Part shown: positions 8,572-24,680 of the stretch, one piece after another
How the letters are laid out: the number at the start of each line of letters is the position of its first letter
Position numbering within the stretch: the stretch's first letter is position 1
DNA from: Nitrospira sp.
GTDB taxonomy: Bacteria; Nitrospirota; Nitrospiria; Nitrospirales; Nitrospiraceae
Reading direction: 5' to 3'
NCBI GenBank assembly: GCA_016873435.1
Contig: VGXF01000001.1
Span: 186,001 to 250,000 of the forward strand
DNA length: 64,000 nt
The notes under the pieces: generated by a model
What the model was told of the DNA's origin: nothing
What the model saw: the letters and a program-made list of their open reading frames with translations, nothing else
Databases searched by the model: none
Made by a program: the position numbers and the translations under genes

Positions 8572-9438
8572 ATGGATACGGCCGTGACGGTCCGTCTTCG
8601 ACTCATCGCTCAGTTGATTCGACTGCCCAGCCAGACTGGCACACTGCTGCTGATGGTACCTACCCTCTGGGCGTTGATACTGGCCTCCCATGGCCGTCCC
8701 GATCCAATGTTGATCGCCCTCTTCGCATTCGGCTCCTTCCTAATGCGGAGCGCCGGCGTCATTTTGAACGACGCAGCCGATCGTCGCTTTGACAGCCAAG
8801 TGGAGCGGACCAAAACCCGTCCGCTGGCCAGTGGCGCGCTAGCACTGCCCGAGGCGGCGATCATCCTCCTTGTACTGCTGGTGTGCGCCAGTGGACTGCT
8901 TCTGTTGCTCAACCAGCTGGCACTGAGATTGAGCCCGGTTGCCTTGCTCTTGGCCATCCTGTATCCCTTTGCCAAGCGCATTTTTCCACTCCCGCAGGCC
9001 GTGCTGGGAATCGCCTTCGGATGGGGCGTGGTAATGGCGTGGGCGGCAGCGGCCAATGCGCTCGCCCCCGAGGCCTGGCTGCTGTTTGCGGGCACCATCG
9101 CCTGGGCCGTGGCCTACGACACCATCTATGCCCTGCAGGATCGCACCGACGACGAGCGTCTCGGAATCAAATCATCCGCCATCCTGTTTGGGAAAAATAC
9201 CTGGCTGGCCGTTGCCATCAGCTTCGGCACGATGGCGGCCTGCCTGGCGCTGGCCGGATGGCTGTCCGGAATCGGCGTGGTGTTCTACGGCGTGCTGGCG
9301 GCCTGTTGTGGATTCGTGAGCCAACAGGCTTGGACGATCAGAAACAACGTGTCCGCCCAAGCGGCTTTTGCCATGTTCCGGCAACATGTCTGGATCGGTT
9401 GGGCGATCCTAGCCGGGTTTTGGATTGGATTCCTCTAA
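8572..9438 (+). CDS. ubiA: UbiA-family prenyltransferase
   Basis: A 288-aa, roughly nine-helix membrane protein with both aspartate motifs of the UbiA superfamily: NDAADRRFD (residues about 66-74) and YDTIYALQDRTDD (about 183-195), which bind Mg-diphosphate of the isoprenoid donor. UbiA attaches a polyprenyl chain to 4-hydroxybenzoate in ubiquinone synthesis; related enzymes make other quinones or hemes. The second motif matches the 4-hydroxybenzoate type closely. Whether this organism uses ubiquinone or only menaquinone cannot be decided here, so the substrate is open. Transcribed alone, ending at a strong terminator shared with the convergent cytochrome operon. Confidence 0.85.
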   Translation: MDTAVTVRLRLIAQLIRLPSQTGTLLLMVPTLWALILASHGRPDPMLIALFAFGSFLMRSAGVILNDAADRRFDSQVERTKTRPLASGALALPEAAIILLVLLVCASGLLLLLNQLALRLSPVALLLAILYPFAKRIFPLPQAVLGIAFGWGVVMAWAAAANALAPEAWLLFAGTIAWAVAYDTIYALQDRTDDERLGIKSSAILFGKNTWLAVAISFGTMAACLALAGWLSGIGVVFYGVLAACCGFVSQQAWTIRNNVSAQAAFAMFRQHVWIGWAILAGFWIGFL

Positions 9439-9456: not shown

Positions 9457-9483
9457 AGGCGGGGCCTATTGCCCCGCCTTTTG
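9457..9483. terminator. Bidirectional rho-independent terminator
   Basis: A 9-bp perfect GC-rich stem AGGCGGGGC / GCCCCGCCT (9457-9465 and 9471-9479) with loop CTATT is followed by TTTT on the plus strand and preceded by an A-tract region for the minus strand. It separates convergent ubiA and the cytochrome operon. The stop codon TAG of the diheme cytochrome lies in the loop, so one stem arm is coding sequence. Confidence 0.85.
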
Positions 9484-10485
9484 AATCGGGTTTTCGGGCT
9501 TCGGCGCGCGCAGCGTCGCGACATACAGGGTGACCGCCTTGGCATCCTCGTCGCTCAAACCAAGATTCGGCATGCGCGTAGTCGGCTTCATGGCCTGCGG
9601 ATACTTAATCCATCGGTAGACCCACGTCGGATTCAGGCGGAACCCCGCGCGGTCCAGAGCCGGCCCCACGGCCCCTCCCGCCTCACCTACCCGGTGACAG
9701 GCATTGCAACCATATTTATTCGTGTACAACTGCTTGCCATGCTCGACCAGTTTGTCAACCTGTTCCGGCTTCATGGTTAGATCAGGTCTTGGCACCGCCG
9801 CGAACTTGGGCCGCTCCTTGAAATTGGTCACGGCGGCCTGCGCGACATCAAGCACCTTCTTGGCTTTCACAAAGGCATCCTGCTCCTTTGCATAGACCGC
9901 CTCGTCCGTATCCTTCCCGCTCTTTTCGGCCTCGTCGTCAGCTTTTTTTTGGGCAGCTTCAAATGTTTGCTTAACCTGATCGAATTGCTGTTGCGCCGTC
10001 ACCTTCTCGCTTTCGAGCTTCTTCATCCGCCCAGCGATGTCGAACTCAGACTTCATGCCGTGGAGCGTCCGGACATACGCCACGATCGACCAAACTTCCT
10101 CTTCAGACAACGTGTATTTCAACGTCGGCATGGTCGGCACGGCGAATTCGTCGTCGCCGATCTTGTCGCCCTTGTCTGGCGTCGTGTCTTTCATGTCGCG
10201 CCAAATCGTATTAAAGATTTCCTCGTCCTTGTACGTAGACATTTCGCTCTTATTGGACAAATCTTTTGGGCGCGGGTCCGGCATCTTTGCCCAGTTATAG
10301 CCCTCGTTCTGGCGTCCGTGCTCGCCGTGGCAGTGCATGCAATAGTGCGCGTACAGATTTTTCCCCTTGGCCACCTGTTCGTTCTGGAACAGGGCGCACC
10401 CGGCCACACCGGCTCCGGCGGCAATCGTCGCCAGCACGCCTACGACCGCAAGTTTGTGGATTGCCATTCCCCTGTTCATGTTCAT
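9466..10485 (-). CDS. Diheme c-type cytochrome lipoprotein
   Basis: A 339-aa protein with a lipoprotein-like signal (GVAGC) and two class I cytochrome c domains: CMHCH at about residue 49 and CNACH at about residue 262. Between them lies a charged, Ala/Lys/Glu-rich region (about 155-235) likely to form a coiled coil or long helix. Methionines in the TMPTL and TRMPN regions are candidate distal ligands. It is the last gene of the respiratory operon and overlaps the preceding gene by 4 bp. It would act as a periplasmic electron carrier or subunit for complex III. Its final codons form the terminator stem. Confidence 0.85.
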   Translation of the reverse strand: MNMNRGMAIHKLAVVGVLATIAAGAGVAGCALFQNEQVAKGKNLYAHYCMHCHGEHGRQNEGYNWAKMPDPRPKDLSNKSEMSTYKDEEIFNTIWRDMKDTTPDKGDKIGDDEFAVPTMPTLKYTLSEEEVWSIVAYVRTLHGMKSEFDIAGRMKKLESEKVTAQQQFDQVKQTFEAAQKKADDEAEKSGKDTDEAVYAKEQDAFVKAKKVLDVAQAAVTNFKERPKFAAVPRPDLTMKPEQVDKLVEHGKQLYTNKYGCNACHRVGEAGGAVGPALDRAGFRLNPTWVYRWIKYPQAMKPTTRMPNLGLSDEDAKAVTLYVATLRAPKPENPIQKAGQ

Positions 10486-11303
10486 GCCGCCGGCCCTTTC
10501 TTCAGCTTTCGGATCACCACGAACTCAAATCCGGCGGCAAGCCCGATTGCCAGCACGGCATAGAGAGCGGGCGAATAGTCTGCCGGCGGATCGACCCTGA
10601 AATACCACCAGGACGACACCGCCTTCTGCCCACCCTTTTCCCTTAGCTCGCCGCTGGCAGGGTCCTTCTGACCGTCCCAAATGGCAAAAGCGATATTGCT
10701 AAACGTGCCTGGCTGGAATTGGGTATCGTGCTCCTTGTCGTCGGTGATGACCGCTCGCTTAAAGACCACCTTCCACTTGCCATTCTCATAGACGCTCTTG
10801 CCCGTGACATCCTGGGAATCCTGGACCTTCAACGTCCCGAAACCCTTGGCCGTCATATCGAGCGCCTTGCCATCCTTGTTCTTCCAATACCAGATGTTAA
10901 CTGGTCCGCCTTCCACCTGTCCCATCGGCTGCCCGTGCGCAAAATGCGCCTTCTTGTCGCCGACCATGAATTCAATTGCGGCAGCATCGTCCGCATCCTG
11001 CGTCGGATCCTCATACTCCAGCAGGATCGCAACCTGCTTACCGTCGCTAAGCCCGCGGACCTTGACGTCTTTCACCGTCGCTTCCTGAATCCGCGGCTGC
11101 CAGTGTACCTGGGGAGACATAGGGAACTGCGCCGCCACGGCGGAATTCCACGCTGCGGCCGTGGGATCATCGGGCACCGAGCTGACCAGCGCCGCCCGCA
11201 CCGCCACGCTCTCCTGCGCCCACGCGGAGCCCACCCCCGCCGTGCTAGCCAGCAGCGCCGCGCCTGCGAGTCCCGCTCTCCAGAGTGCCGTCTGATTCGT
11301 CAT
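10482..11303 (-). CDS. Ethylbenzene-dehydrogenase-type heme b protein, membrane anchored
   Basis: A 273-aa protein: Sec signal (cut near SAWAQ), an EB_dh-type beta-sandwich with the family hallmark PVNIWYWKNKDG and GKWKVVFKRA, and one C-terminal transmembrane helix (about 243-262). In this family (gamma subunits of DMSO-reductase type II enzymes, e.g. EbdC and proposed NxrC) a single heme b is held by Met and Lys. The Met in HGQPMGQV is a candidate ligand. Start follows AAGGGG. It is embedded between c-type cytochromes of the complex III operon, not beside a molybdoenzyme, so it may serve as an extra electron input or output site. Confidence 0.8.
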   Translation of the reverse strand: MTNQTALWRAGLAGAALLASTAGVGSAWAQESVAVRAALVSSVPDDPTAAAWNSAVAAQFPMSPQVHWQPRIQEATVKDVKVRGLSDGKQVAILLEYEDPTQDADDAAAIEFMVGDKKAHFAHGQPMGQVEGGPVNIWYWKNKDGKALDMTAKGFGTLKVQDSQDVTGKSVYENGKWKVVFKRAVITDDKEHDTQFQPGTFSNIAFAIWDGQKDPASGELREKGGQKAVSSWWYFRVDPPADYSPALYAVLAIGLAAGFEFVVIRKLKKGPAA

Positions 11304-11310
11304 GATCCCC

Positions 11311-12030
11311 TTACTCCCACGTCCGGGGCTTCTGACCCGCCCCGTCGTACTCGCCCATGATGATCTTCCATATTTGCTCGTCTTTTAACTCGACCTCCCA
11401 CCGCGGCATGGCGGACTTCCACGGCATGCCCTCGACAGAAAGGCCAACGCCGCCCTTCTTGATGCGCCAGAACAGATAGCTTTCCTGCAACATCGCGATC
11501 GTCGTGGGGTCCTTGAAATTAGCCGGGGGAGGATTGAAGCCGCGCGCGGCTGGCCCCTTGCCGTCAAACTGGCCATGACAGGGAGAGCAATAGGCCGCGT
11601 ACAATCCCTTCCCCTGCATAATGTTCTCCGGCGTATTCGGCACGGGATTCGACAGCCCCGTAAACTCACCCGGCGGCGCCGGGTGGATGGTCCGATTTTC
11701 GGCCGGCGGCAACGCGCTGGGTGCCGTGCTCGCGTAGGTCTCATAGCCGATGAACAGCGGAAAGAGCGCCAGCACGACGAAACGAGCCGTTTGCATAGCC
11801 CCGGCCTGCCGTTCTCCGCTAATAAACCGGAACACTGGGCCAAGAAACTCTTCCATGGAGCCGCCGGTCAGGGTCTTAAAAATCATAATCCCGGCGATGG
11901 TCAGTGCGATGTACAGCGTGATGAGACTCGCCGGCAGCGGAGCCGAACCAGGCAGATTCGGCACGACCAGCTTTAGAAATAGATAGATGACCGCGATGAG
12001 GATTGCCGGCTTGATCAACGCTCCGCCCAT
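11311..12030 (-). CDS. Membrane-anchored monoheme cytochrome c
   Basis: A 239-aa protein with about three N-terminal transmembrane helices (residues about 8-25, 33-52, 80-100) and a C-terminal class I cytochrome c domain with CSPCH near residue 148, followed by MPRWEVELKDEQIWKI as the distal-ligand region. The heme domain should face the periplasm. It sits 23 bp after another membrane cytochrome c and 7 bp before the EB_dh gene. Similar to quinol-oxidising complex-associated cytochromes; likely a fixed subunit of the complex III assembly. Confidence 0.85.
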   Translation of the reverse strand: MGGALIKPAILIAVIYLFLKLVVPNLPGSAPLPASLITLYIALTIAGIMIFKTLTGGSMEEFLGPVFRFISGERQAGAMQTARFVVLALFPLFIGYETYASTAPSALPPAENRTIHPAPPGEFTGLSNPVPNTPENIMQGKGLYAAYCSPCHGQFDGKGPAARGFNPPPANFKDPTTIAMLQESYLFWRIKKGGVGLSVEGMPWKSAMPRWEVELKDEQIWKIIMGEYDGAGQKPRTWE

Positions 12031-12053
12031 GAGTGTGCCCTCCCCGCTTCCCG

Positions 12054-12734
12054 TTACTGCCCGTGAACCATGGCCACCAGGCCTGCGTCCGCCTTCATGT
12101 TCTTCTGCTTCGCCTTGTCCGTGACCGGCGTCTTGCCTGGAACCGCAGGTGCTGCTGGAACTGCAGCGGGCGCGCCGCCGGGCACTTCGATTTCAGACGG
12201 GCTGACCGTGATCGGCTCGCCGCTCATCTGCTGCAGGAATGCGATCACCGACAGAATTTCGTTCTTGGTCAGACCGATCGGGTTCTTGTTGATATACGGC
12301 ATACGGGCCGGATATTCCTTGGGAACCCCCTCGTGCCGGTAATCCAGATAAATGTACGCCTGCGGCTGCGTCAGACTTTCGTACATGAACTCGCGGCTCA
12401 GCTTGGCCCCGATGCCCTTGAGATCTGGGCACCGCGCCGCTTCACTGGGCCCGATTGAATGACACAGCGCGCACTGGCCTTTGCTGAAGAAAATTTTCTG
12501 GCCGATCACCGCCATGTCATTGGCCGTCTTGATGCTAGCCACATCGAACTTTTCCTCCACCGGCGGCAGCGAGGCCATCTGCGGCACGCTCAGGGCCACC
12601 AGCGAGAAGAGCCCCAGGACGATCATCACGAACCCAATCACGCGCGGAAAGCGCGATTGGATAAAGAGCAGGATCGCGACGCCCGTTCCGACGACGCCCA
12701 GCCCGATTAACTGCAGCATTGCAACTTCGCTCAT
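12054..12734 (-). CDS. Membrane-anchored monoheme cytochrome c
   Basis: A 226-aa protein with two N-terminal transmembrane helices (about 5-25 and 32-52), a cytochrome c domain with CALCH near residue 88 and a Met ligand candidate in ARMPYIN, then an Ala/Pro-rich tail. It is 31 bp downstream of the first CydA-like gene and 23 bp upstream of the next cytochrome gene. Likely passes electrons within the complex encoded by the operon. Confidence 0.85.
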   Translation of the reverse strand: MSEVAMLQLIGLGVVGTGVAILLFIQSRFPRVIGFVMIVLGLFSLVALSVPQMASLPPVEEKFDVASIKTANDMAVIGQKIFFSKGQCALCHSIGPSEAARCPDLKGIGAKLSREFMYESLTQPQAYIYLDYRHEGVPKEYPARMPYINKNPIGLTKNEILSVIAFLQQMSGEPITVSPSEIEVPGGAPAAVPAAPAVPGKTPVTDKAKQKNMKADAGLVAMVHGQ

Positions 12735-12765
12735 ATGCCCCCGCTAGTCAGATCGAAGGTTCAAA

Positions 12766-14547
12766 TTAATGTCCGCCACCCGCCTTCGCCTTGTCCCCCA
12801 TCGTGGCCACCCAAAAGATGAAAGCGACGAGCATGCAGAACGCGAAGGTGTTTAGCGACATGAAGGCCGCCGCATATCCCAATGCTGGCGAATAGGCGTA
12901 GGGTGACGAGTCACGCATCACACCATAGATGTGCCAGTGCACGCGGGACGATGACCGCGCGTAGCCCATCAGCGTCATGAGCAGGATGACCATGATCGCG
13001 TTGAGCACCAGCGCGTAGCCGGCCCGAGGCGGCATACGCCCCCAGATCATTTCCGTGGTCGTCTTGGCGCTCTTGAGAAGCAACGCGGTCAGTGGCGTGA
13101 TGGTGACCATGACGAAGAGGACGATCAGCACCTGCGCCACCGAGAAGTAGTTAATGCGGACAATGGCCGGCACAAAATAACCCCAGACGCCAAGCACAAT
13201 CACAACTAGTGCTGCCACGACTAACACACCGCTCATGACCGACTTGGCCATCTTGGCCCAGGTAGCGGTTTCCTCCTTGCCCGCGCGCCAGTACATGATG
13301 AAACTCATGAACGTAACCAGAATCATGAGATTGGCGACCGTCATTTTGGCCGACATAACACCGAAAGCACCGAGCAGCGGGTGATGTGTACCGCCCAGCT
13401 TGCGTGCCTCCTCTAAGCTCGCCACGAGTGAGTGTGGCGTCATCCACACACCCAGGCACAACAAGAGAATCACCAGCATCGCCATGATCGGCTTCTTGTA
13501 TTGCTGCTCCGATCCGGGAATGCGGTGCGTAATACCTAGCCAGAAATAGTAGTTTGAACCGAGGAATAGCACGCCGATGAGCATGGCTTGCAGGATGAAC
13601 AGCCAGGAGAGGAATCCGCCCATCAGCGTAATGCCCATCTGCTGATTGTACTGATAGACTTCCCGCATCAACCAGTAGCCTGCGAAGGGCAGCGGCAGCA
13701 GGCCGAAGACGCCGATAAAGTTCCCGACATAGCCCATCCAGTCGTAGTGCTCACGCTCCTCCGGCGTCTTCGCCGACAGGTAGCGCACCCCGGCGTAGGC
13801 GCCACAGATGTACCCTCCCAGGACAACGTTGGCGATCAGGCGGTGGATGTTAACGGGCCACCACGTCGGATTCCACGTGGCCGCCCAGGCACGCTGCAGG
13901 TCCGTGCCTTCCGAAATGACGACGGGGCTCGCCTGAAAGGTCGCCCAGGAGTTCGGCACGACCATGATGAAGAACGCAAAGACGTTTAGCAGGAAACCCA
14001 GAAAAATATGGAACGTCTTCTTGCCGCCATCCTGCATGACATCCCAGCCGTACCAATAGAGATAGAGCGTCGCCGTTTCCAGCAGGAACAGCAGGCAGTA
14101 GACAACGAAGGACGGGAAGAAGATATCCGACAGATAGGCCATTAGCTTAGGGTAAAAGCCGATCAGCAAAAACAGGAGGATGCCGCCAAACAGGGCCGTC
14201 GTTGCATAAGAAGAGGTCAGGAGCTTGGTGAACTCCTTGGCCAGCTTGTCGTACCGCTTTTCGCCGGTCTTCCAGCCCACGACTTCGCAGAGCCAGGCAA
14301 AAATCGGCACACCCAGCACGAAACCAGCCAGCAACAGATGGAGCTGGGCAACGACCCAGACGATATTCCGACTGCCGCCTAACTGCGGAAGGTCTCGGTA
14401 GGCCGTCGCCGCCTGAGGAGCCGCCTCCTCTGCCCAGCCCGCCACGGGAAACCCCAGCGCGCCAGCCAGCAACGCCAATCCGGCGATGGACAGCATCCAC
14501 CAGCCCCGGCGCGAACCCTGCTCTCCTGACAACCTGTCATGCCTCAT
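12766..14547 (-). CDS. Cytochrome bd-like (CydA-type) membrane subunit
   Basis: A 593-aa polytopic protein (about 14 helices, the first a probable signal/anchor). It retains CydA-like heme ligand positions: His in QLH (about 70), Glu in FLLET (about 157) and His in NIHR (about 235). The CydA GRQPW region reads WMTPH (about 368-372), and SNYYFWL is shared with the second copy in the operon. The start at 14547 has AAGGAG six bases away; the GTG five codons earlier overlaps that site. No CydB is present in the window. Nitrospira genomes are known to carry several bd-like proteins of debated function; here the context suggests a subunit of complex III rather than a stand-alone oxidase. Confidence 0.8.
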   Translation of the reverse strand: MRHDRLSGEQGSRRGWWMLSIAGLALLAGALGFPVAGWAEEAAPQAATAYRDLPQLGGSRNIVWVVAQLHLLLAGFVLGVPIFAWLCEVVGWKTGEKRYDKLAKEFTKLLTSSYATTALFGGILLFLLIGFYPKLMAYLSDIFFPSFVVYCLLFLLETATLYLYWYGWDVMQDGGKKTFHIFLGFLLNVFAFFIMVVPNSWATFQASPVVISEGTDLQRAWAATWNPTWWPVNIHRLIANVVLGGYICGAYAGVRYLSAKTPEEREHYDWMGYVGNFIGVFGLLPLPFAGYWLMREVYQYNQQMGITLMGGFLSWLFILQAMLIGVLFLGSNYYFWLGITHRIPGSEQQYKKPIMAMLVILLLCLGVWMTPHSLVASLEEARKLGGTHHPLLGAFGVMSAKMTVANLMILVTFMSFIMYWRAGKEETATWAKMAKSVMSGVLVVAALVVIVLGVWGYFVPAIVRINYFSVAQVLIVLFVMVTITPLTALLLKSAKTTTEMIWGRMPPRAGYALVLNAIMVILLMTLMGYARSSSRVHWHIYGVMRDSSPYAYSPALGYAAAFMSLNTFAFCMLVAFIFWVATMGDKAKAGGGH

Positions 14548-14573
14548 GAACAACTCCTTCACGCCAGTGCTGG

Positions 14574-15581
14574 TCAGGCCTTCGACTTGCCGGCGGCCAG
14601 CTTCTTTTCAGGGGCCCTGGTCTTTTTGTTATTCTTCGCCTGTTCTTCCAGCGCCTGCACGGAGGCTTCAGCCTGCGTCAGGATACGATCGGCTTTTTGC
14701 AAGGCGTCGGCAGGCTTGAATGGAGGCGGCGCCTTTTGCTCATCTTTTTTGTACGATTCGTGCGGATGCGGCGTGGTGACGGGAATCGTCGCCCACAGCA
14801 GAAATACCAGCATCGCTCCGGCGGCTGAAAACGCGATCAGCATCAACGGCTGATCAGCCGGGACGCGCATCAAATCCCAACGGGTGATGAGTTCCGAATA
14901 GGCAGCTCCGGTAGGACGGTTGCCATCTGCCACGCGCTGCACCATCCACCCAACTACAGAACATCCGATCACGAGTAACGCCAGCAACACGGACGCCGCC
15001 GCACTGCCCCAGAGGGTGAACTCCACACTGATCCGCTCGGCAACCGGCAGCGCCTTGAGCGGGCCGAACTCCAGGACCGCCTGCGTGACCGCCTTGGCAA
15101 TGCCCACCGCTCCACCGGTGACCACAGTTGCAACGATTTCTGGCGCGCTGTCGACACTGCCTTTGAGGACCGGCATGCCGGCCAGCACGATGCAGAGCAA
15201 TGGGAAAAACACCAGCCCAAAGCCCGCAATGCGCCCCCAGAGCGCCGCGCCCAGACCATCCGTCGGCTCCACACGGAGTTTTTCAAGGAAGAACGTTTTA
15301 CCTGTTACGCCCAACGCCCAGATGTCGATCGGGATGGCCAGGAGAAACAGCAGGCCCAATCCGACACCTTCGCTCAGATGCAGATCCAGTGCAGCCTGCG
15401 CAAACGGCAATCCCAGCACCGTCACCGGACTGGCAAAAAGTAGCAGCAGCGCCAGACCCGCCTTGGCCTCCAGTTGCAAGGAGCCCATCATCATCAACAC
15501 CAAGGCCAGTGCGAGCTTGATGGGAATGCCCGTCCAGCAGGCATCCCAGAGAAGCGAAAGTCCGGTCCTGAATGAGGCCAT
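14574..15581 (-). CDS. Polytopic membrane protein of unknown function in complex III operon
   Basis: A 335-aa protein with about seven hydrophobic helices over residues 15-270 and a charged cytoplasmic or periplasmic tail with Lys/Glu/Ala repeats (about 285-335), likely helical. It has no heme motif and few conserved polar residues in the membrane. It lies 6 bp after cytochrome b and 26 bp before the first CydA-like gene. I do not recognise the family; by position it is a structural or assembly subunit of the respiratory complex. Confidence 0.65.
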   Translation of the reverse strand: MASFRTGLSLLWDACWTGIPIKLALALVLMMMGSLQLEAKAGLALLLLFASPVTVLGLPFAQAALDLHLSEGVGLGLLFLLAIPIDIWALGVTGKTFFLEKLRVEPTDGLGAALWGRIAGFGLVFFPLLCIVLAGMPVLKGSVDSAPEIVATVVTGGAVGIAKAVTQAVLEFGPLKALPVAERISVEFTLWGSAAASVLLALLVIGCSVVGWMVQRVADGNRPTGAAYSELITRWDLMRVPADQPLMLIAFSAAGAMLVFLLWATIPVTTPHPHESYKKDEQKAPPPFKPADALQKADRILTQAEASVQALEEQAKNNKKTRAPEKKLAAGKSKA

Positions 15582-15587
15582 GCGACC

Positions 15588-16682
15588 CTAGTCTAAAAAT
15601 TCACGATTAATGATCGCGGACACGGTAAAGATCAAAATGCTGGCCATGACAACGATCCAGCCGATTAGCGCGAGGGGCCGCTTAAAAATATTGCGTTCTG
15701 GGCTACGGTCGATAAACGGCAACGCCGCCAGCAGGGCCATGAAAGCGCCAGGCAGCGCAATGGCGCCCAGGAACTGTCCGAACTCACCGGCAAAAACCTT
15801 CAAGCGCAGCAATTGGAATAGGAACAGGAAGTACCACTCCGGCTCCGGATGGTAGTCACCAGGGTCGGGGGTCGCCTCTTCCAGCAACACTACCGGCTCC
15901 CACCGAGCTAGCGCGCAAATCGTGAGGAACACAGCGGCCATTGCCACCATGTCCTTCCAGATCTGTCGCGGGAAGAAGTAGTCGGTCTTGGCGTTGATCT
16001 CCTCAGGTGTGCCGCGGAACGGACCAGCCGGCCCCGCCGACCGGAACAGGAACAGGTGTAGCCCCGCCAAGCCCATCAGCGCCGCCGGCAGGATCATGAC
16101 GTGAATGACGAAAAACCGCGTCAGTGTCATCTGCCCCGGCGTGGCCCCGCCTTTGAGAAACCGCGCCATAAAATCGCCGACGAGCGGCGTTTTGTCCATG
16201 ATCTCAACTCCGACAGTCGTGGCCCAATAGGCGCGCTGGTCCCACGGCAGCAAATAGCCGGTGAACCCGAAGCCCATGACGATGCCGAATAGAGCTAATC
16301 CAACCAGCCAGATCATCTCGCGTGGTTTCTTATACGCGCCCCAGAGAAAGACCTGTGACATGTGTGCAAAAACCATCACCACCATCGCCGAGGAGCCCCA
16401 GAAGTGATAGCTGAGGATAAACCAGCCGTAATCCACCTCGTGAATGATGAACTGCGTGCTGGCGTAAGCATGGTCGGCACTGGGTACGTAGTAGAACATC
16501 AGCAGCATGCCCGTGAGCGCCTGCATGATGAAGATGAACAGGAGGCAGGAGCCCATGACATAAGCCCAGCGCGACCCGCCAGGAACGGGCTCGTTGAGCA
16601 TCTTGGCCTGGAGAGTCTTCAGACCCACCCGCTCATCGACAAAGGCGATCACTTTTTCAAGCAGCTTGGGTTCGGCGCTCAT
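15588..16682 (-). CDS. Cytochrome b of quinol:cytochrome c reductase (complex III)
   Basis: A 364-aa, about eight-helix protein with the four axial histidines of the two b hemes: His93/His107 (13 residues between) and His194/His209 (14 residues between, the b6f/Bacillus-type spacing). The Qo-site motif is PEWYF. N- and C-terminal halves that are separate in b6f are in one chain. The b6f Cys that binds the extra c-type heme appears replaced by Val at the aligned position. The ATG directly abuts the stop of the Rieske gene. It oxidises quinol and works with the Rieske and c-type cytochromes around it. Confidence 0.93.
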   Translation of the reverse strand: MSAEPKLLEKVIAFVDERVGLKTLQAKMLNEPVPGGSRWAYVMGSCLLFIFIMQALTGMLLMFYYVPSADHAYASTQFIIHEVDYGWFILSYHFWGSSAMVVMVFAHMSQVFLWGAYKKPREMIWLVGLALFGIVMGFGFTGYLLPWDQRAYWATTVGVEIMDKTPLVGDFMARFLKGGATPGQMTLTRFFVIHVMILPAALMGLAGLHLFLFRSAGPAGPFRGTPEEINAKTDYFFPRQIWKDMVAMAAVFLTICALARWEPVVLLEEATPDPGDYHPEPEWYFLFLFQLLRLKVFAGEFGQFLGAIALPGAFMALLAALPFIDRSPERNIFKRPLALIGWIVVMASILIFTVSAIINREFLD

Positions 16683-17621
16683 TTAGACAATCCGAATCTG
16701 AGCCTTGGTGCCGGCCTTGAATTCCATGTCGATGATTTCGATGTTGCCGCCTGCGTCCACGCGGATCGGCAGCGTGTCCAGCGCCCGCGGGGCCGGCCCA
16801 TCCAGCACCTTGCCCGCCGGGTCATAGATGCTCAGATGGCAGGGGCAAAGAAAGATTTCCTTGCCCAGCTTCGGCACCTTGCGCCACTTGTAGCCGCACC
16901 CCAGATGTGGGCATTTACCGGAGAACACCACGTAGGGCACGTTTTTCTTATTGGTCCAGACCACCCTGCCCGACGAGTCCCGAAACTCTATGTCCTTGCC
17001 TTGATAAACGTCCTCGAGCACGCTCGATGACGCCTTGAGAATCCAGACGTTCTTGTCGATCTCGGCCTCGGGCATGAACGCTTCCTTGACCTTCTTCTTG
17101 TACTTAAACTGGATGCCCACATCATCCGCCTTGATCTTACTGACGTTGCCGATCTTGAGCCATCCGTTGTCGAACGGCGCGTACATCGGCTTCATCAGGT
17201 AGCGGAGCACCGGGAAAGCCATGAGCAGGCCGATCAGCCCACCGATTGCATGCGTAAAATTCGCGAAGAACATGCGCCGCGGCACGCTCCGCTCGAGTGG
17301 CGGCAGCGGCACCAGTACCTCGCCTGGCTGCACATGAAGATGGTCCTCGAGATGGGCAATCTCGACTTCGTGGGTCGTCACGTAGTCGTCGCGTTTGAGC
17401 GCGGGGAACTGCATTAGCGCGCTGGCAGCTGACCGCAACTGGACCAAATCGCCGGCCACCGACTGCACCTCCGCCATGGGAATCTGGCGGGGCGGTGCGC
17501 CGTTACCCCCGACGACGATGTGGCTCAGCTCGTGCGTAAGCGGATCGACGATGACGTGCGTGACCTCGCCAACCTCGCGATCGCTGCACCGCACCTTTGA
17601 TTTCAGCTTCGGCTGCTGCAT
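16683..17621 (-). CDS. Rieske iron-sulfur protein with N-terminal PRC-barrel-like domain
   Basis: A 312-aa protein. The C-terminal half has the Rieske [2Fe-2S] motifs CPHLGC (237-242) and CPCHLS (259-264), giving the two Cys and two His ligands plus the disulfide pair. A membrane helix lies at about 122-142. Unusually, residues 1-90 form a PRC-barrel-like domain (DREVGEVTHVIVDPLTHELSH split by family pattern), which must be on the cytoplasmic side before the helix. It is one base downstream of a cytochrome c gene and abuts cytochrome b. It transfers electrons from the Qo site to cytochrome c. The PRC part could anchor the complex to a cytoplasmic partner. Confidence 0.9.
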   Translation of the reverse strand: MQQPKLKSKVRCSDREVGEVTHVIVDPLTHELSHIVVGGNGAPPRQIPMAEVQSVAGDLVQLRSAASALMQFPALKRDDYVTTHEVEIAHLEDHLHVQPGEVLVPLPPLERSVPRRMFFANFTHAIGGLIGLLMAFPVLRYLMKPMYAPFDNGWLKIGNVSKIKADDVGIQFKYKKKVKEAFMPEAEIDKNVWILKASSSVLEDVYQGKDIEFRDSSGRVVWTNKKNVPYVVFSGKCPHLGCGYKWRKVPKLGKEIFLCPCHLSIYDPAGKVLDGPAPRALDTLPIRVDAGGNIEIIDMEFKAGTKAQIRIV

Positions 17622-17622
17622 G

Positions 17623-18441
17623 CTACTTTTTCTTGATTGGCTTCGGCGTATTCACCGAAGGATTTTTCAGCGTGGCGAGGAAGGCCACCAGGGCGTCGAT
17701 GTCCTTCTCCTCCATTAGTTCCTTATATTTATCTGGCATCTTCTTTTTCTCGTATTCCTTCTCGAAGCCTTCGGCCATCCAGCTCTGCGGATCGACGATC
17801 TTCTGTTTGAGCTCGTCCAGCTTGAGCAGATTGCCGATGTTATCTAGTTCCGGACCGCGCTTCTTCCCGCCCTCGCCGAAAAGCTTGTGGCAGTTGTAGC
17901 ACTCTTGCAGTTGCCACTGTTCCTTGCCCAGTGCAATGACGTCGCCGGCTACGAGCCCGACCCCGCCCGACTTGCCCCCACTGCCTGCCGGCGCCACTTC
18001 CGTCGGTCCGCCCAGCGTCTGAATGCGCGCCATGATGCCCGTCGCTTTTTCATCGAGTGCCTTGGCCCGCGCCAGCAATTCTTCGGCTTTACCTTGCTCG
18101 GACGCCCGCTTCTTGGCCTCCAGCAGCTTGGCAATCTTCCCCTTTTCGTCCTCCGGGTCGTACTGCGGCCAGAGCGACGCGCCGCCGATGTAGACCACCG
18201 AGAGCACCAGATAGAAGGCTAGCAGCGCCACAACGGCCTTGAACCCGCTCAAGGCCGGCACCGGCGGCGCATCCAGCAGGATGAATACCGCCGTGCCCAG
18301 CATGGTATAGGCCACGAACATGTAGCGGAAGATTAGCGGAAACCCAAGTACTGTGGCGGCGCCGAAGAACGCACCGCCGATGATCGCTCCGACGATTCCC
18401 TTCTTGATCACACTGCTGAGAAAACTTGGCTGCTCGCTCAT
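17623..18441 (-). CDS. Membrane-anchored monoheme cytochrome c of complex III
   Basis: A 272-aa protein with about three N-terminal transmembrane helices (about 10-30, 36-55, 65-85), a Lys/Glu/Ala-rich helical linker (about 98-140) and a C-terminal cytochrome c domain with CYNCH near 190 and a Met ligand candidate in KKMPDK. The start at 18441 is chosen because it begins the natural MSEQP sequence just before the first helix; the frame upstream is open but lacks membrane character. It is immediately followed by the Rieske and cytochrome b genes, so it is the likely cytochrome c1 counterpart. Confidence 0.85.
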   Translation of the reverse strand: MSEQPSFLSSVIKKGIVGAIIGGAFFGAATVLGFPLIFRYMFVAYTMLGTAVFILLDAPPVPALSGFKAVVALLAFYLVLSVVYIGGASLWPQYDPEDEKGKIAKLLEAKKRASEQGKAEELLARAKALDEKATGIMARIQTLGGPTEVAPAGSGGKSGGVGLVAGDVIALGKEQWQLQECYNCHKLFGEGGKKRGPELDNIGNLLKLDELKQKIVDPQSWMAEGFEKEYEKKKMPDKYKELMEEKDIDALVAFLATLKNPSVNTPKPIKKK

Positions 18442-18475
18442 ACCACCCTCTATCAAAAATGAAGTGCGGCTCGCG

Positions 18476-20179
18476 CTACTTGGCGCCGGCCGGAACCGGG
18501 CTGCCCTCGTGAACATGCCCCTTCGGCTGGGCCACACGCAGCGTCAGGATGATCGCAAAACTGACGACCAGATAAAACACCAGTGTAATGCCCGTGATCC
18601 ACCAAGCCGAATAGGCCAGTGTGGGCGTAAACGATTCCACCGTGAAGTCAGGCACCAGATTGTACGTGTGAAAGTACTTACGCAGCAGGGACCGGACCGC
18701 TCCCATCAACCCCATAGTCCAGATCGCGCTGAACGCCAGGAAGATCAGCACGAACTGGGAGGCGAAGTCGATCTTCCCCCACACGATTGTGCCTTGCGTA
18801 ATAGCCCGGTTATAAATGATGTAGCTGACGACGGTCACAAACACCAGCGTGATCGCCGCGGAGTTCTTCGCTGGCATCAGCGCCAGGAAATTCCACGCGC
18901 TGGGCAGTTCCAGTTCCTCAACTAATTTGGCCCCTGTCGCCACGAATCCGTGGGGCGTCATCCAGATGGCATTCCCCACGATCACCATCAAAAACGACAC
19001 CTTGATCGCGGTGAGGGATGACACCGTGAACGGAATAAACCGCCCCAGTACAACCGGGATGAGCACCAGCGGCACCAGCACGGCCATCGACCTGGGGTCA
19101 GGTACTGGGAACAGCGTCCACGTGTAGGTCATGACAAAGGGCAGCGCCACCATGACCAGCACGGCGAGCACGGTAATCCGTACCCGCTCCACCCCCTCGA
19201 TGCGCTTCATGCTCAACCATATATAATAGTTGCTTGCGAGGAAGATCAGACCGATCATGGCTCCCTGCATCTCGAAGAACATCGAGAGCTGATCGGCCAT
19301 CATGTAGGGGCAGATCGACGCGTCATAGTCGCAGAGTTCGTAGGCCAAGAGGTAGCCCATGAACGGCAGGAACAGCAACGCGCCCACGCCGATCATGTTA
19401 CCGACAAAGCCCATCCAATCGTAATAGGCCCGCTCCTCGTCGGACTTCGAGAACATATAGAGGTACGCCGCGATCAACCCGGTGATAAACCCCCCGAACG
19501 TTACGTTCCCTACCAGGCGATGGAGGTTGAGTGGCATCCAGCTGTAGTTGAAAATCTTGTCCCACAGCGTGGCCGTCTGAATGAATTCAACGACCGAGAC
19601 GCCCTCGGCCTTGACCGGCGTGTTCATAAACGAGGTCGGTCCATCGATCACAAAAAGCGTGACCGTGCCGATGATGTTCAGCAGGACGCCCAACGCGATG
19701 TGCCGCGCCTTCTTGTCCCCCTTCCACGAATCCCACGTATAGAAATACATGTAGAGGACGATCGTCTCCGCGATGAACAATAACGGGTAGACAACGGCGA
19801 AGATCAGGAAGAAGTGATTGATGAGCCACGTTGTGAACTGGGGATAAGTGGCTAGCAGCACGAAGATGAACAGGCCGCCGGTCAGCGCGGTCATGCTGTA
19901 GAGAATGACCGTGACCTTGATCACTTCCTTGGCGAGCCGGTCGTATCGAGGGTCCTGCTTGCGATATCCCAGCCACTCCGAGATCACCACAAAGATCGGC
20001 GCGCCAAGAATGAACCCGGCGAACAGGATGTGGAGTTGGGCGACGATCCAGACCGCCGTGCGGTTACCAGTATATGGAAACTCTGCCACCGGCGCGCTTG
20101 GCACCTGGGCGTAGGCCGTGGCGCCACAGACCGCCAGTAGGCCAACGAGCATCAGAAGACTCCGCTGCCACGTTTTCAT
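18476..20179 (-). CDS. Cytochrome bd-like (CydA-type) membrane subunit, second copy
   Basis: A 567-aa polytopic protein with a signal-like first helix and about 13 further helices. As in the paralog at 12766-14547 it keeps His in QLH (about 50), Glu in IAET (about 138), His in NLHR (about 220), WMTPH (about 406-410) and SNYYIWL. The two are clearly related but diverged. The start at MKTW is favoured over an ATG nine codons upstream because it begins directly at the signal sequence. It is the third gene of the operon, 33 bp after the lipoprotein cytochrome. Likely quinone-interacting; oxygen reduction activity is unproven. Confidence 0.8.
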   Translation of the reverse strand: MKTWQRSLLMLVGLLAVCGATAYAQVPSAPVAEFPYTGNRTAVWIVAQLHILFAGFILGAPIFVVISEWLGYRKQDPRYDRLAKEVIKVTVILYSMTALTGGLFIFVLLATYPQFTTWLINHFFLIFAVVYPLLFIAETIVLYMYFYTWDSWKGDKKARHIALGVLLNIIGTVTLFVIDGPTSFMNTPVKAEGVSVVEFIQTATLWDKIFNYSWMPLNLHRLVGNVTFGGFITGLIAAYLYMFSKSDEERAYYDWMGFVGNMIGVGALLFLPFMGYLLAYELCDYDASICPYMMADQLSMFFEMQGAMIGLIFLASNYYIWLSMKRIEGVERVRITVLAVLVMVALPFVMTYTWTLFPVPDPRSMAVLVPLVLIPVVLGRFIPFTVSSLTAIKVSFLMVIVGNAIWMTPHGFVATGAKLVEELELPSAWNFLALMPAKNSAAITLVFVTVVSYIIYNRAITQGTIVWGKIDFASQFVLIFLAFSAIWTMGLMGAVRSLLRKYFHTYNLVPDFTVESFTPTLAYSAWWITGITLVFYLVVSFAIILTLRVAQPKGHVHEGSPVPAGAK

Positions 20180-20212
20180 GGTATCCGTCGCCCTCCTCTC
20201 CTGCACCTCAAC

Positions 20213-20779
20213 CTACTTCTTTGTGTCCGCAGCCGGGGCTGCGCCCTTCGCATCCTTGGCGTCGGCCGTCGGAGCCGCTCCGGCCTCGTAGTGCACCGGC
20301 TCCCACGCCTTCTTGCTCGCATTCCACTGTTGGCCCTTCAGACCAAAACTGCGCTCGAAGGCGACCAGCTTCCACCGGTCCTCTTCGGAAAGCTTACTCT
20401 TCCAGGCCTTCATCTTGGTGTTTGGAACACCCTCGGCAACGCGCCAGAACCAAACCGAGTCTGAATAGAGTTTCATACGTTCCGTGACGCGGAAATCGCG
20501 CGCGCCCGCCTTGACCGGCTTGCCGTCCTTGCCGTGGCAACTGGCGCAATTCACGTCCGGGTTGGTTTCCCCAATGAACAGCTTGCGGCCCTCTTCCACG
20601 ATCTTATCGTCAGCCCACCACTCCGCCGGCATATGCTTGTCGGCGTACTCGGCCGGAGGATCGGGCGGCGCCACGATCGGCCCCTCACCCCCGCCTTCGC
20701 CCCCGCAGCCTGAGAGGAGCGCGCCGGCCCCAACCACTCCGAAAAACATCACCGTATGAAGCCATGTCTTAGAAGTCAT
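20213..20779 (-). CDS. Monoheme cytochrome c lipoprotein
   Basis: A 188-aa protein with lipobox LLSGC, a short Gly/Pro linker, and a cytochrome c domain with CASCH near residue 80; TKMKAW offers a distal Met. The C-terminus is an Ala/Lys/Asp-rich tail. The second ATG (MTSK) is chosen as start. It is an outer-face, lipid-anchored electron carrier, second gene of the operon. Confidence 0.82.
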   Translation of the reverse strand: MTSKTWLHTVMFFGVVGAGALLSGCGGEGGGEGPIVAPPDPPAEYADKHMPAEWWADDKIVEEGRKLFIGETNPDVNCASCHGKDGKPVKAGARDFRVTERMKLYSDSVWFWRVAEGVPNTKMKAWKSKLSEEDRWKLVAFERSFGLKGQQWNASKKAWEPVHYEAGAAPTADAKDAKGAAPAADTKK

Positions 20780-20827
20780 ACAATCCACCTTCCCCTTTCT
20801 AAACTGATTCTGCTGCTCGCTGAATTG

Positions 20828-21343
20828 CTACCGATTTTTTCCCTTACCGCCCCTTGGATGCTTTTTACGCTTTCCCATCAGTGCGAAGCCGACGCCCGCT
20901 ACTACCACCGCACCCGCTCCATAATAAAACCAGGCCGGCGGCTTATCGGATGCCGTTTCGCACCCGGTGCCGAAATTGACTGCCACTTTGCGCTCGCTTT
21001 GGATATCCTTGACATCAAACTGCGCCGTGATCCGCTGTTCCACACCCTGGGCGGTGACCAGGATTGGATCGCCTTTGTTGTCGTTGTGGAGGTGTAGCGT
21101 GACTTTGTAGTAGCCGCGGTCGTCCGTCAGCACGTTCGCGCCGACCGACACCCGCGTATCTTTGGCCATGACCTGCGTGCCGGCAACCGGCTGGCGATTG
21201 TCTCGGCAAACAAACCCCTCGATAGTGAAGCGATGGTCCACCTCATGCGTCGCCCACACTACCGAAGCACTGGCGAACAGCACGCTGAGCAAGCCCGCTG
21301 CCAGCTTCCGCGTGATCTGCCCGTATGTCGCGCTTCCTATCAC
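20828..21343 (-). CDS. Anchored protein with carboxypeptidase-regulatory-like domain
   Basis: A 171-aa protein: signal peptide (cut near VWATH), a CarboxypepD_reg-like beta-sandwich (FTIEGFVCRDNRQPVAGTQ, YYKVTLHLH), and a C-terminal transmembrane helix (about 137-155) followed by a basic KRKKHPRGGKG tail. It is the promoter-proximal gene of the respiratory operon and starts with GTG after AAGGGAG. It carries no heme motif. It may stabilise or assemble the periplasmic face of the complex. Confidence 0.7.
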   Translation of the reverse strand: MIGSATYGQITRKLAAGLLSVLFASASVVWATHEVDHRFTIEGFVCRDNRQPVAGTQVMAKDTRVSVGANVLTDDRGYYKVTLHLHNDNKGDPILVTAQGVEQRITAQFDVKDIQSERKVAVNFGTGCETASDKPPAWFYYGAGAVVVAGVGFALMGKRKKHPRGGKGKNR

Positions 21344-21358
21344 TACGTCTCCCTTATC

Positions 21359-21387
21359 GATTTAGCATAGCTACCAAATCAAGTCAA
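21359..21387 (-). promoter_or_regulatory. Promoter of the respiratory operon
   Basis: TTGACT (21382-21387) and TAAATC (21359-21364) are separated by exactly 17 bp on the minus strand, 15 bp upstream of the GTG start of the first gene. All twelve genes down to the terminator at 9457 run the same way with gaps under 50 bp. Confidence 0.6.
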
Positions 21388-21545
21388 TGAGCCACGGGAC
21401 CAAACTGCTCCCGTGAATCGACAGTGCTGTTTCAGGGTTTATGCATTTTGTAGGATCACTGCCCTGCGCGGGACCGCTCCGAAGTCAGCCGTAGGAGCAA
21501 GAGACAAATTGGGAGCGGCCAGTACGAGCGAGGAAGGAATGCGCC

Positions 21546-21952: not shown

Positions 21953-22969
21953 CTAGCGCGCGGTCGGAATCAGCGTGAGCTTTGCGGTGCGCGCAAACCC
22001 TGACACGGTACCGAACGTATCATTGACGGCCGAGGCTTCATAGCCGCAATGGACCATGCACTCGGCGCACTTTTCATTGTTCCCGGTGCCGTAGTGATCC
22101 CACTCCGTTGTATCCATCAACTCGCGGAAGGTCTTCGCGTAGCCGTCCTGCAACAGATAGCAGGGCCGCTGCCAGCCGAACACGTTGTAGGTGGGATTGC
22201 CCCAAGGCGTACACGCGTACTCCTTCTTTCCCATTAGGAAGTCCAGAAAAAGCGGCGACTGATTGAACTTCCAACCCCACTTAGGCCGACTAAGGATCTT
22301 GGCAAAAAGCTCTCGGGTCCGAGCGCGCTTGAGGAAGTGCTGTTGGTCCGGTGCCTTCTGATAGCTGTAGCCGGGCGAGATCATCATCCCTTCCACGCCC
22401 AGATCCATCATCTCGTCGAAAAACTTCCGGACGCGATCCGGGCTGGCATCGTCAAACAGCGTCGTGTTCGTCGTCACGCGATGCCCGCGCTTCAGGGCCT
22501 CCTTGATCGCCTTGACGGCAATCTCGTAGACGCCGTCACGGCAGACAGCCAGGTCATGCTCGCTTTTCAACCCGTCCATATGAACGCTGAAGGTTAAATA
22601 CTTGGACGGCGTAAACTCCTTGAGCTTGCGCTCCAGCAAAATTGCGTTGGTGCAGACGTAGAGATACCTCTTCTGTTTCAGCAACCCCTCAACGATCCGC
22701 CCGATTTCCGGATGAATTAGGGGTTCCCCACCGGGAATGGCCACGATCGGCGCCCCGCATTCCTCGGCCGCCGCCCAGCACTGTTCCGGCGACAGGTGTT
22801 TGTCGAGCACATAATCTGGATACTGGATCTTCCCACACCCCGCGCAAGCCAGATTGCAGCGGAAGAGCGGCTCCAGCATTAGCACGAGCGGGTAGCGCTT
22901 CACGCCCTTCACCTTCTGCGTCAGCACATAGGACGCAACCGTATACATCTGGGACACGGGAACGGCCAT
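21953..22969 (-). CDS. hpnH: Radical SAM protein HpnH (adenosylhopane synthase)
   Basis: A 338-aa radical SAM enzyme with the cluster motif in FRCNLACAGC (about residues 36-45), IPGGEPL, and a C-terminal Cys-rich segment (KCAECMVHCGYE) typical of the SPASM-like HpnH tail. HpnH joins the 5'-deoxyadenosyl radical to diploptene to make adenosylhopane, the first step toward C35 hopanoids. The start at 22969 follows AAGGAG. It has its own promoter-like sequence (23035-23064). shc and hpnG lie about 8 kb upstream in the same orientation, and metK/ahcY elsewhere in the window supply and recycle SAM. Confidence 0.93.
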   Translation of the reverse strand: MAVPVSQMYTVASYVLTQKVKGVKRYPLVLMLEPLFRCNLACAGCGKIQYPDYVLDKHLSPEQCWAAAEECGAPIVAIPGGEPLIHPEIGRIVEGLLKQKRYLYVCTNAILLERKLKEFTPSKYLTFSVHMDGLKSEHDLAVCRDGVYEIAVKAIKEALKRGHRVTTNTTLFDDASPDRVRKFFDEMMDLGVEGMMISPGYSYQKAPDQQHFLKRARTRELFAKILSRPKWGWKFNQSPLFLDFLMGKKEYACTPWGNPTYNVFGWQRPCYLLQDGYAKTFRELMDTTEWDHYGTGNNEKCAECMVHCGYEASAVNDTFGTVSGFARTAKLTLIPTAR

Positions 22970-23034
22970 GAAACTCCTTGATTGTCGTTGAGGACTGCCC
23001 GTTGGGCGGCCCAGCCCTGCTACAGACGGGAGGA

Positions 23035-23064
23035 ATAGTATCACCCGCCTTTTTGATTCGTCAA
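23035..23064 (-). promoter_or_regulatory. Candidate promoter of hpnH
   Basis: TTGACG (23059-23064) and TACTAT (23035-23040) with an 18-bp spacer on the minus strand, about 65 bp upstream of the hpnH start. The rest of the 360-bp stretch 22970-23330 shows no gene. Confidence 0.5.
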
Positions 23065-23330
23065 TGAACGGGCGGCGATCCTGCCTCCAACGTAGCCTGA
23101 GCGCCTTCTTATTATCGCGCGCTCCCTCGGCTTGACCGCCGCGCGAGCGCGGCACCGCTTCCGGTGCTAGGTTCGTTGGAACAACTGGCGCGGTACTGCC
23201 GGCGGGATTGCCACCTGAGTATTTTGTGTCGCGCCCAATACTCGCGTACGATAATAATCCCGAGGCGACACGCTTCGTAGCGCCTCAGTTCCTGGATATC
23301 GCAAATGAACACTTGCGCGGGCGCGCGGAG

Positions 23331-23405
23331 TGGAGGCGCCGGGCGGGTTCGAACCGCCGCATCGCAGTTTTGCAGACTGCTCCCTTACCACTTGGGTACG
23401 GCGCC
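23331..23405 (-). tRNA. tRNA-Cys (anticodon GCA)
   Basis: Seventy-five bases fold as a cloverleaf on the minus strand: acceptor GGCGCCG/CGGCGCC, anticodon stem GCAGT/ACTGC with loop CTGCAAA (anticodon GCA), T-arm GGTTCGAACCC, discriminator T and encoded CCA. It lies between ispG and hpnH. Confidence 0.95.
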
Positions 23406-23474
23406 TTCGGCGGGCATTATAACAGAGTTGCGCAGTGAGAATGGAGAGCTCCCGAAGCAGACCGGCGATAATGG

Positions 23475-24680
23475 CTACCGTTTATTGGGCAGGACGGGAA
23501 TCTCGCGGCGCGCTGAAGAAGAATCCGGACCCTGCTGCGCCTGCATCCACTCAGTCAGGCCATTGTCATCCTGATGATGCGGTGCCGGCGCGACCTCCCC
23601 GCCGGCCTCTTCCGTTTCTTTTTCCTTTGCCATGATCTCGACTTCCGGAATCAGCACGTCCAGCAACTGGTCCATCGGCACCTTGCGAACCAGCTTGCCC
23701 TTCTTGAAGAGAATCCCAACGCCCTGACCGCCCGCAATGCCGATGTCGGCTTCCTTGCCTTCGCCAATGCCGTTGACCACACAACCCAGCACCGAGACAT
23801 TGAGCGGTGCCTTGATATGTGCCAGTTTCTTCTCCAGCTCGTTGGCCATGCGGATCACATCGATTTCGACGCGGCCGCAGGTCGGGCAGGCGATCACGTT
23901 GATGCCGCGGTGGCGTAGTTCGAGCGATTTGAGAATTTCGAAGCCGACCTTGACTTCCTCGACCGGATCCGCCGCCAGCGATACGCGTAACGTATCCCCG
24001 ATGCCCTGCGAAAGTAGCCAGCCTAATCCAATGGCCGACTTCACGGCGCCGGTCATGGCCGTCCCAGCTTCTGTAATGCCGATGTGAAGTGGATAGTCCG
24101 ACTGCATGGCGAACATCCAATAGGCATCGATCGCGTGCCTGACGTCGGACGCCTTGAGCGATACCTTCATGTTGGTGAAGCCCTCGTCCTCAAGCGCGTG
24201 CACCGCATTCAAGGCCGATTCAGCCAGCGCTTCCGGACTCGGCCAACCGTATTTATCCAGCAGCGGACGTTCCAGCGATCCCCCGTTGACGCCGATGCGG
24301 AGTGGAATCCCGCGCTCAGTCACCACCTTAATCACTTCCTGCACCTTCCACCAGGCCCCGATGTTACCAGGATTGATGCGGACGCAATCCACGGTCTTGG
24401 CCGCTTCCAACGCCAGCTTGTGGTCGAAGTGAATGTCGGCGATCAGCGGCACGGTCATCTGCGCCTTGATCTTGGGCAGTGCCGCCGCGGCTTCCATATC
24501 GGGCACGGCCACGCGGATGAGTTCACAGCCGACCGCTTCGAGCTGCTGGATCTGCTCGACAGTCGCCCGCACGTCGCGGGTGTCAGTCGAACACATAGAC
24601 TGGACGGCGATCGGTGCGTCGCCGCCGATCTTTACCTTCCCAACCTTGACCTGTTTTGTTTTTCGCCGCGTGATCTGCAT
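23475..24680 (-). CDS. ispG: 4-hydroxy-3-methylbut-2-enyl diphosphate synthase (flavodoxin/ferredoxin)
   Basis: A 401-aa IspG/GcpE of the MEP isoprenoid pathway. The N-terminal TIM barrel (PIAVQSMCSTDTRD, VPLIADIHFD, CVRINPGN) and the C-terminal [4Fe-4S] domain with ACPTCGR and LGCVVNGIGE (the three cluster cysteines) are intact. The last 40 residues are an extra acidic/Gln-rich tail beyond the usual bacterial length. It follows dxs by 51 bp, giving a dxs-ispG unit; ispH is at 37650-38594. Confidence 0.96.
   Translation of the reverse strand: MQITRRKTKQVKVGKVKIGGDAPIAVQSMCSTDTRDVRATVEQIQQLEAVGCELIRVAVPDMEAAAALPKIKAQMTVPLIADIHFDHKLALEAAKTVDCVRINPGNIGAWWKVQEVIKVVTERGIPLRIGVNGGSLERPLLDKYGWPSPEALAESALNAVHALEDEGFTNMKVSLKASDVRHAIDAYWMFAMQSDYPLHIGITEAGTAMTGAVKSAIGLGWLLSQGIGDTLRVSLAADPVEEVKVGFEILKSLELRHRGINVIACPTCGRVEIDVIRMANELEKKLAHIKAPLNVSVLGCVVNGIGEGKEADIGIAGGQGVGILFKKGKLVRKVPMDQLLDVLIPEVEIMAKEKETEEAGGEVAPAPHHQDDNGLTEWMQAQQGPDSSSARREIPVLPNKR

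Follow-up and report, generated by a model that had tools for sequence, protein, structure and literature searches.

The O2-reducing enzyme of Nitrospira is still unproven, yet these bacteria do much of the world's nitrite oxidation. Which respiratory machinery, then, is encoded by a locus that places a cytochrome b and a Rieske protein in one row with two proteins resembling CydA and no CydB? We address this question for a twelve-gene operon in a stretch of 64,000 nucleotides from Nitrospira sp. (GenBank assembly GCA_016873435.1, contig VGXF01000001.1, forward-strand positions 186,001 to 250,000; this whole stretch is the window), starting from an earlier reading of its letters alone (the original prediction), which had suggested for the operon a supercomplex that could both oxidise quinol and drive reverse electron flow. 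We consider it likely that the locus is the respiratory operon of the Nitrospiria, combining a complex III with a bd-like complex IV, in which the CydA pair would serve as an oxidase fed by cytochrome c.

The operon has already been described, and the central idea of the original prediction is already in print. In Nitrospira moscoviensis, the cluster is known as CIII_1 / bd-like_1 / bd-like_2 / alt_nxrC_1, is strongly transcribed and was proposed in 2019 to give rise to a III+IV supercomplex, possibly touching the nitrite oxidoreductase (NXR) through alt_NxrC_1, with the second CydA read as complex IV (PMC6606698). The earlier label of a 'hybrid complex III' is right in that one operon joins complex III and bd-like proteins, and understates a cluster for which both complexes III and IV have been proposed. 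What we add is a minimal genome, the modular structure of the operon and its occurrence in relatives in which the NXR subunit NxrA was not detected.

Gene content of the operon

The open reading frame (ORF) list places twelve minus-strand genes, tightly packed, at 21343-9466, with intergenic gaps of at most about 40 bases when gene 04 starts at 18441.

20828-21343, minus strand: gene 01, periplasmic CarboxypepD_reg-like domain with a C-terminal transmembrane (TM) segment, accessory (PF13620 below cut-off)
20213-20788, minus strand: gene 02, monoheme cytochrome c with an N-terminal anchor (PF13442, one CxxCH)
18476-20179, minus strand: gene 03, CydA1, bd-like subunit (PF01654, 7e-22)
17623-18441, minus strand: gene 04, membrane-bound monoheme cytochrome c (PF00034)
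16683-17621, minus strand: gene 05, Rieske protein, PRC-like domain at the N terminus, a single TM segment (PF00355)
15588-16682, minus strand: gene 06, cytochrome b, unsplit, ligands spaced as in b6 (PF00033, 2.6e-48)
14574-15581, minus strand: gene 07, polytopic orphan with VTTPHPH conserved past the final TM segment
12766-14547, minus strand: gene 08, CydA2, bd-like subunit (PF01654, 1.6e-20)
12054-12734, minus strand: gene 09, membrane-bound monoheme cytochrome c (PF00034, one CxxCH)
11311-12030, minus strand: gene 10, monoheme cytochrome c with an estimated three or so TM segments (PF13442)
10482-11303, minus strand: gene 11, periplasmic domain of the EB_dh heme-b type, C-terminal TM segment, alt_NxrC_1 type (PF09459, 2e-19)
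9466-10485, minus strand: gene 12, diheme cytochrome c with CxxCH at residues 49 and 260

Pfam domains on these proteins comprise cytochrome b, Rieske, five c-type cytochromes, EB_dh and two Cyt_bd_oxida_I; domains of ActB/ActC-type subunits, which would mark an alternative complex III, were not found among them. The CxxCH motifs number six: gene 12 has two, and genes 02, 04, 09 and 10 have one apiece. The inventory first proposed from the letters is confirmed throughout: ORFs, domains and CxxCH counts agree on the twelve genes, the two CydA-like proteins stand without CydB by Pfam and by a negative genome-wide CydB search, and the six c-hemes appear as six CxxCH motifs in five c-type cytochromes. 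The ORF list starts gene 04 at 18537, in overlap with the CydA1 gene; homologues, mostly 266-277 amino acids long, suggest that this is probably too far upstream and that 18441 is the start.

The core resembles bc1 and b6f complexes in its cytochrome b, in which two heme-b histidine pairs (H93/H107 and H194/H209) and PEWY are intact in all homologues, and in the Rieske motif CPHLGC...CPCH, found in 16/16 homologues. It differs from them in a cytochrome b that is unsplit and spaced as in b6, with 14 residues separating H194 from H209 and V at the position of b6f Cys35, which serves heme ci (one Cys lies three residues further on), in its several separate c cytochromes and in the N-terminal PRC-like domain of the Rieske protein. 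The orphan gene 07 has no Pfam match and is 35-52% identical among relatives; its AlphaFold model (pLDDT 72) found no fold match in the PDB, so no function is assigned. Gene 07 comes in two lengths: the longer is seen in the window and in some relatives, and the shorter lacks a stretch near the N terminus.

Conservation across Nitrospirales

Among 54 sufficiently long Nitrospirales loci, selected by CydA1 similarity so that the counts measure gene order and not prevalence, genes 02-05 are found in order in all 54, genes 06-10 in 53, gene 11 in 52 and gene 12 in 51; gene 01 is present in 36. Because genes 02-12 recur in order in 51-54 of the 54 loci, a chance arrangement of the twelve genes is excluded on the evidence of gene order. 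All twelve stand in identical order in N. moscoviensis and Candidatus Nitrospira defluvii (L066, L110), and the identity to N. moscoviensis reaches 86% for CydA1, 91% for cytochrome b and 89% for CydA2. The correspondence of bd-like_1 with CydA1 and of bd-like_2, or the NIDE0901 type, with CydA2 was drawn from gene order and the literature, not from accessions.

A CydA-like match was obtained in all 61 genomes searched, with a CydA1 orthologue in nearly all of these relatives. Neither COX1 (heme-copper oxidase subunit I) nor CydB exceeded the cut-off in 20 of 45 good genomes, including the single-contig G041 and G054 (a count taken from the search tables). In-frame stops interrupt the CydA1 matches of seven genomes (G006, G008, G184, G242, G255, G308 and G310), through either sequencing error or real decay. 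Distances among the operon genes are correlated (0.46-0.95), and were dropped as evidence for a complex as they overlap the values of flanking genes.

A minimal respiratory gene set in the host

The host genome (1.72 Mb in 33 contigs, 98.5% complete) is that of a streamlined Nitrospira-type nitrite oxidiser, as had been supposed: it encodes an NxrA of 1145 amino acids, adjacent to an NxrB-like iron-sulfur protein that was read by eye, the PF14711 profile having given no match to it. Its nearest named loci come from RIFCSPLOWO2_02_FULL_62_14 and a Lake Baikal metagenome-assembled genome, and the Great Lakes are also a source of small Nitrospira genomes (PMC9239080).

The operon cytochrome b is the only one detected in this genome. 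Searches for COX1 and CydB detected neither anywhere in it, within the limits set by the small part possibly missing and with no search made for an alternative oxidase. CydA-like genes number four, two in the operon and two on contig C7. The host thus offers a natural minimal case, with one complex III, four CydA-like proteins and neither heme-copper oxidase nor CydAB detected; N. moscoviensis, in contrast, which like Ca. N. defluvii has the same genes in the same order, has one more complex III as well as two CydAB (PMC6606698).

Heme and quinone sites of CydA1 and CydA2

A profile alignment of 33 bd-like proteins to Escherichia coli CydA, which can be trusted over the N-terminal half alone, identifies the equivalents of H19, E107 and H186 as H59, E147 and H229 in CydA1 and as H75, E162 and H240 in CydA2, and these three residues are kept in nearly all of the 33. 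Those of K252 and E257 are not conserved, K252 being replaced by a hydrophobic residue and E257 by M, which fits CydA enzymes fed by cytochrome c rather than by quinol. The same pattern, with heme ligands kept and quinol residues lost, has been reported for bd-like proteins (PMC3578206). The host CydAs share with canonical CydAB the CydA homology and the three ligands, and differ from it in having no CydB, in the loss of K252/E257, in a replaced E99, in their greater length and in their at least 12 TM-like segments.

Two conserved C-terminal histidines, in TPH and RSxxRxxxH, are candidate heme ligands and nothing more. The AlphaFold model of CydA2 (pLDDT 55), too uncertain for placing C-terminal ligands, matches bd-oxidase CydA chains exclusively at E<=0.001, which we use as a family-level fold match.

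For bd-like oxygen reductases of the OR-N type, CydAA', PMC12342949 and PMC10839748 cite Murali et al. (2021). PMC12342949, which places CydA proteins like those of the operon in OR-N1 and OR-N2, regards OR-N1 plus OR-N2 as the likely CydAA' terminal oxidase in most Nitrospirales. Like these enzymes, the host operon has two CydA-type subunits, no CydB and no quinol-site residues; from position and literature, CydA1 and CydA2 would be of the OR-N1/OR-N2 type.

A probable complex III with a bd-like oxidase

The sequence itself shows the gene content and conserved order, the kept heme ligands, the loss of the quinol-site residues and the lack of any other detected cytochrome b or oxidase of the searched classes; physical assembly, the identity of the O2-reducing CydA and the direction of electron flow are inferences. 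The Rieske/cytochrome b core would exchange electrons between the (methyl-plasto)quinone pool and the c-type cytochromes. Periplasmic electrons, from nitrite oxidation or, with lower-potential donors, from quinol, would pass through the c cytochromes and the EB_dh protein to the CydA1/CydA2 pair, which most likely acts as a CydAA'-type cytochrome c:O2 oxidoreductase. With nitrite as the donor, this cytochrome b probably works in reverse as well, reducing quinone for biosynthesis. Methyl-plastoquinones lie at approximately 50-60 mV, and complex III has been described running in reverse (PMC12324825); such a potential fits both directions of flow.

Several observations weigh against oxygen reduction by this pair. 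We know of no biochemistry showing oxygen reduction by an OR-N enzyme. In the bd-like proteins, E. coli E99 is not conserved, a hydrophobic residue standing in its place, and the equivalents of E445 and M393 could not be placed in the alignment. One genus (f4) has an operon without CydA2, although its genomes show neither COX1 nor CydB. In Nitrospirota outside the class (L171, L172 and L173), CydA1-like proteins accompanied by c cytochromes adjoin iron-sulfur genes in 3/3 loci and a molybdopterin oxidoreductase in 2/3, and a related bd-like protein occurs together with NXR in the anaerobic anammox bacteria (PMC3578206). Judged by these neighbours and the anammox protein, oxygen use does not follow from the fold by itself.

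The foremost alternative, to which we give a real but lesser chance, is that the operon serves co-regulation and no more, complex III and a CydA oxidase being separate enzymes that would be made together and linked by a diffusible cytochrome c. The operon looks modular, with a CydA2 part paralogous to the bd-like / alt_NxrC_2 cluster on contig C7 (L043). That cluster reads CydA-c-cTM-EB_dh, with 43% identity between its CydA and CydA2, and gave no match to cytochrome b or Rieske; its alt_NxrC is a single protein joining the diheme c and EB_dh parts that are encoded by the separate genes 12 and 11 in the operon. In L171-L173, too, cytochrome b and Rieske were not recognised by similarity. The units 02-CydA1-04 and CydA2-09-10-altNxrC thus each occur elsewhere without a recognised cytochrome b/Rieske, and so can stand alone. 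The strict order of the CydA1, Rieske/cytochrome b and CydA2 units across the class, however, exceeds what co-regulation needs, and dedicated membrane-anchored c cytochromes are kept with the units as well.

Some features of related clusters may be noted. The two CydA-like genes of C7 are separated (L043, 9709-11596) by genes for two proteins similar, by eye, to formylglycine-generating-enzyme-like proteins. One groundwater genome (L058/L107) has a fused C7-type alt_NxrC (diheme c-EB_dh) where genes 11 and 12 would stand, and in L058 another CydA2-like cluster follows directly downstream. In manganese-oxidising Nitrospirota, bd-like oxidase complexes are reported, some of which include complex III-like parts (PMC9040806). 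At the histidine of the Nitrospirales TPH motif, L171, L172 and L173 have an arginine.

Rather unlikely, in our judgement, is that one or both CydAs, instead of reducing O2, serve in the membrane for electron transfer or quinone reduction and so link donors in the periplasm to the quinone pool, a reading close to the reverse-flow idea of the original prediction. It draws on the anammox protein, on the molybdoenzyme-type genes beside CydA1-like proteins in other Nitrospirota and on the f4 operon without CydA2. Set against it are the loss of K252 and E257 from the quinol site and the many genomes, two of them single-contig, without another oxidase of the searched classes.

An operon probably not specific to nitrite

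In the four f4 genomes, which represent one genus and count once, no NxrA was found, and the operon (examined in two genomes) retains CydA1 and is without CydA2, gene 10 and gene 11; this pattern alone would tie those three genes to NXR. In families f8 and f9, no full NxrA match was obtained in five genomes that are 95-99% complete, and the complete loci of L166, L167 and L169 keep the order and hold genes 01-06 and 08-12. A few assemblies of nitrite oxidisers lack NxrA too, so that single absences are weak evidence and five together are better. Since the operon is carried even by members of the class in which NxrA was not detected, its layout gives no support to a nitrite-specific role, and the suggestion that the layout points to nitrite-driven reverse flow in particular is not supported; these relatives separate a general respiratory role of the operon from nitrite oxidation. 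Reverse flow through the operon complex III is nevertheless physiologically likely in the host, since its cytochrome b is the only one found there.

A complex dedicated to nitrite, with gene 11 (alt_NxrC_1) forming a direct dock between NXR and complex III/IV, as proposed for N. moscoviensis (PMC6606698) and in line with the f4 pattern, is improbable given that L166, L167 and L169 keep genes 08-12 among five f8/f9 genomes without full NxrA. Gene 11 might dock with another enzyme, or may have gained a later role in nitrite oxidisers.

Equally doubtful in our estimate is an ancestral unit of three modules (c-CydA1-c; Rieske-cytochrome b-orphan; CydA2-c-c-EB_dh) that would predate nitrite oxidation in the lineage and form one III+IV complex, delivering electrons to oxygen or quinone, with CydA1 reducing O2. 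CydA1 is suggested as the O2-reducing subunit because f4 retains it where the operon has no CydA2; if true, this would contradict the usual assignment to the NIDE0901-type CydA2.

Operon ends and flanking genes

A single promoter and a single terminator, as originally proposed, are likely to enclose the operon, judging from two features of unequal quality.

21361-21387, minus strand: promoter-like footprint TTGACT-N12-TATGCTAAA, upstream of gene 01, from an alignment of nine genomes
9457-9479, minus strand: terminator-like hairpin with a GC-rich stem of 9 pairs and a poor T tail

The footprint is conserved, TTGACW-N12-TATGYTA occurring at the same upstream place in nearly all of the nine aligned genomes; a sigma-70 scan gave no promoter match in front of gene 01. 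The hairpin is weak, and the scan returned 19 terminator-like sites against 12.9 +/- 3.5 in shuffled sequences, only a modest excess.

Convergent on the operon end lies a gene for a UbiA-type prenyltransferase (8572-9438, plus strand), whose substrate is possibly a quinone precursor and which is retained there in 48/54 loci. Upstream of the operon, at 21953-24680 on the minus strand, are genes for a DUF3463-containing radical SAM protein and for GcpE (IspG); the radical SAM gene adjoins the operon in most relatives too.

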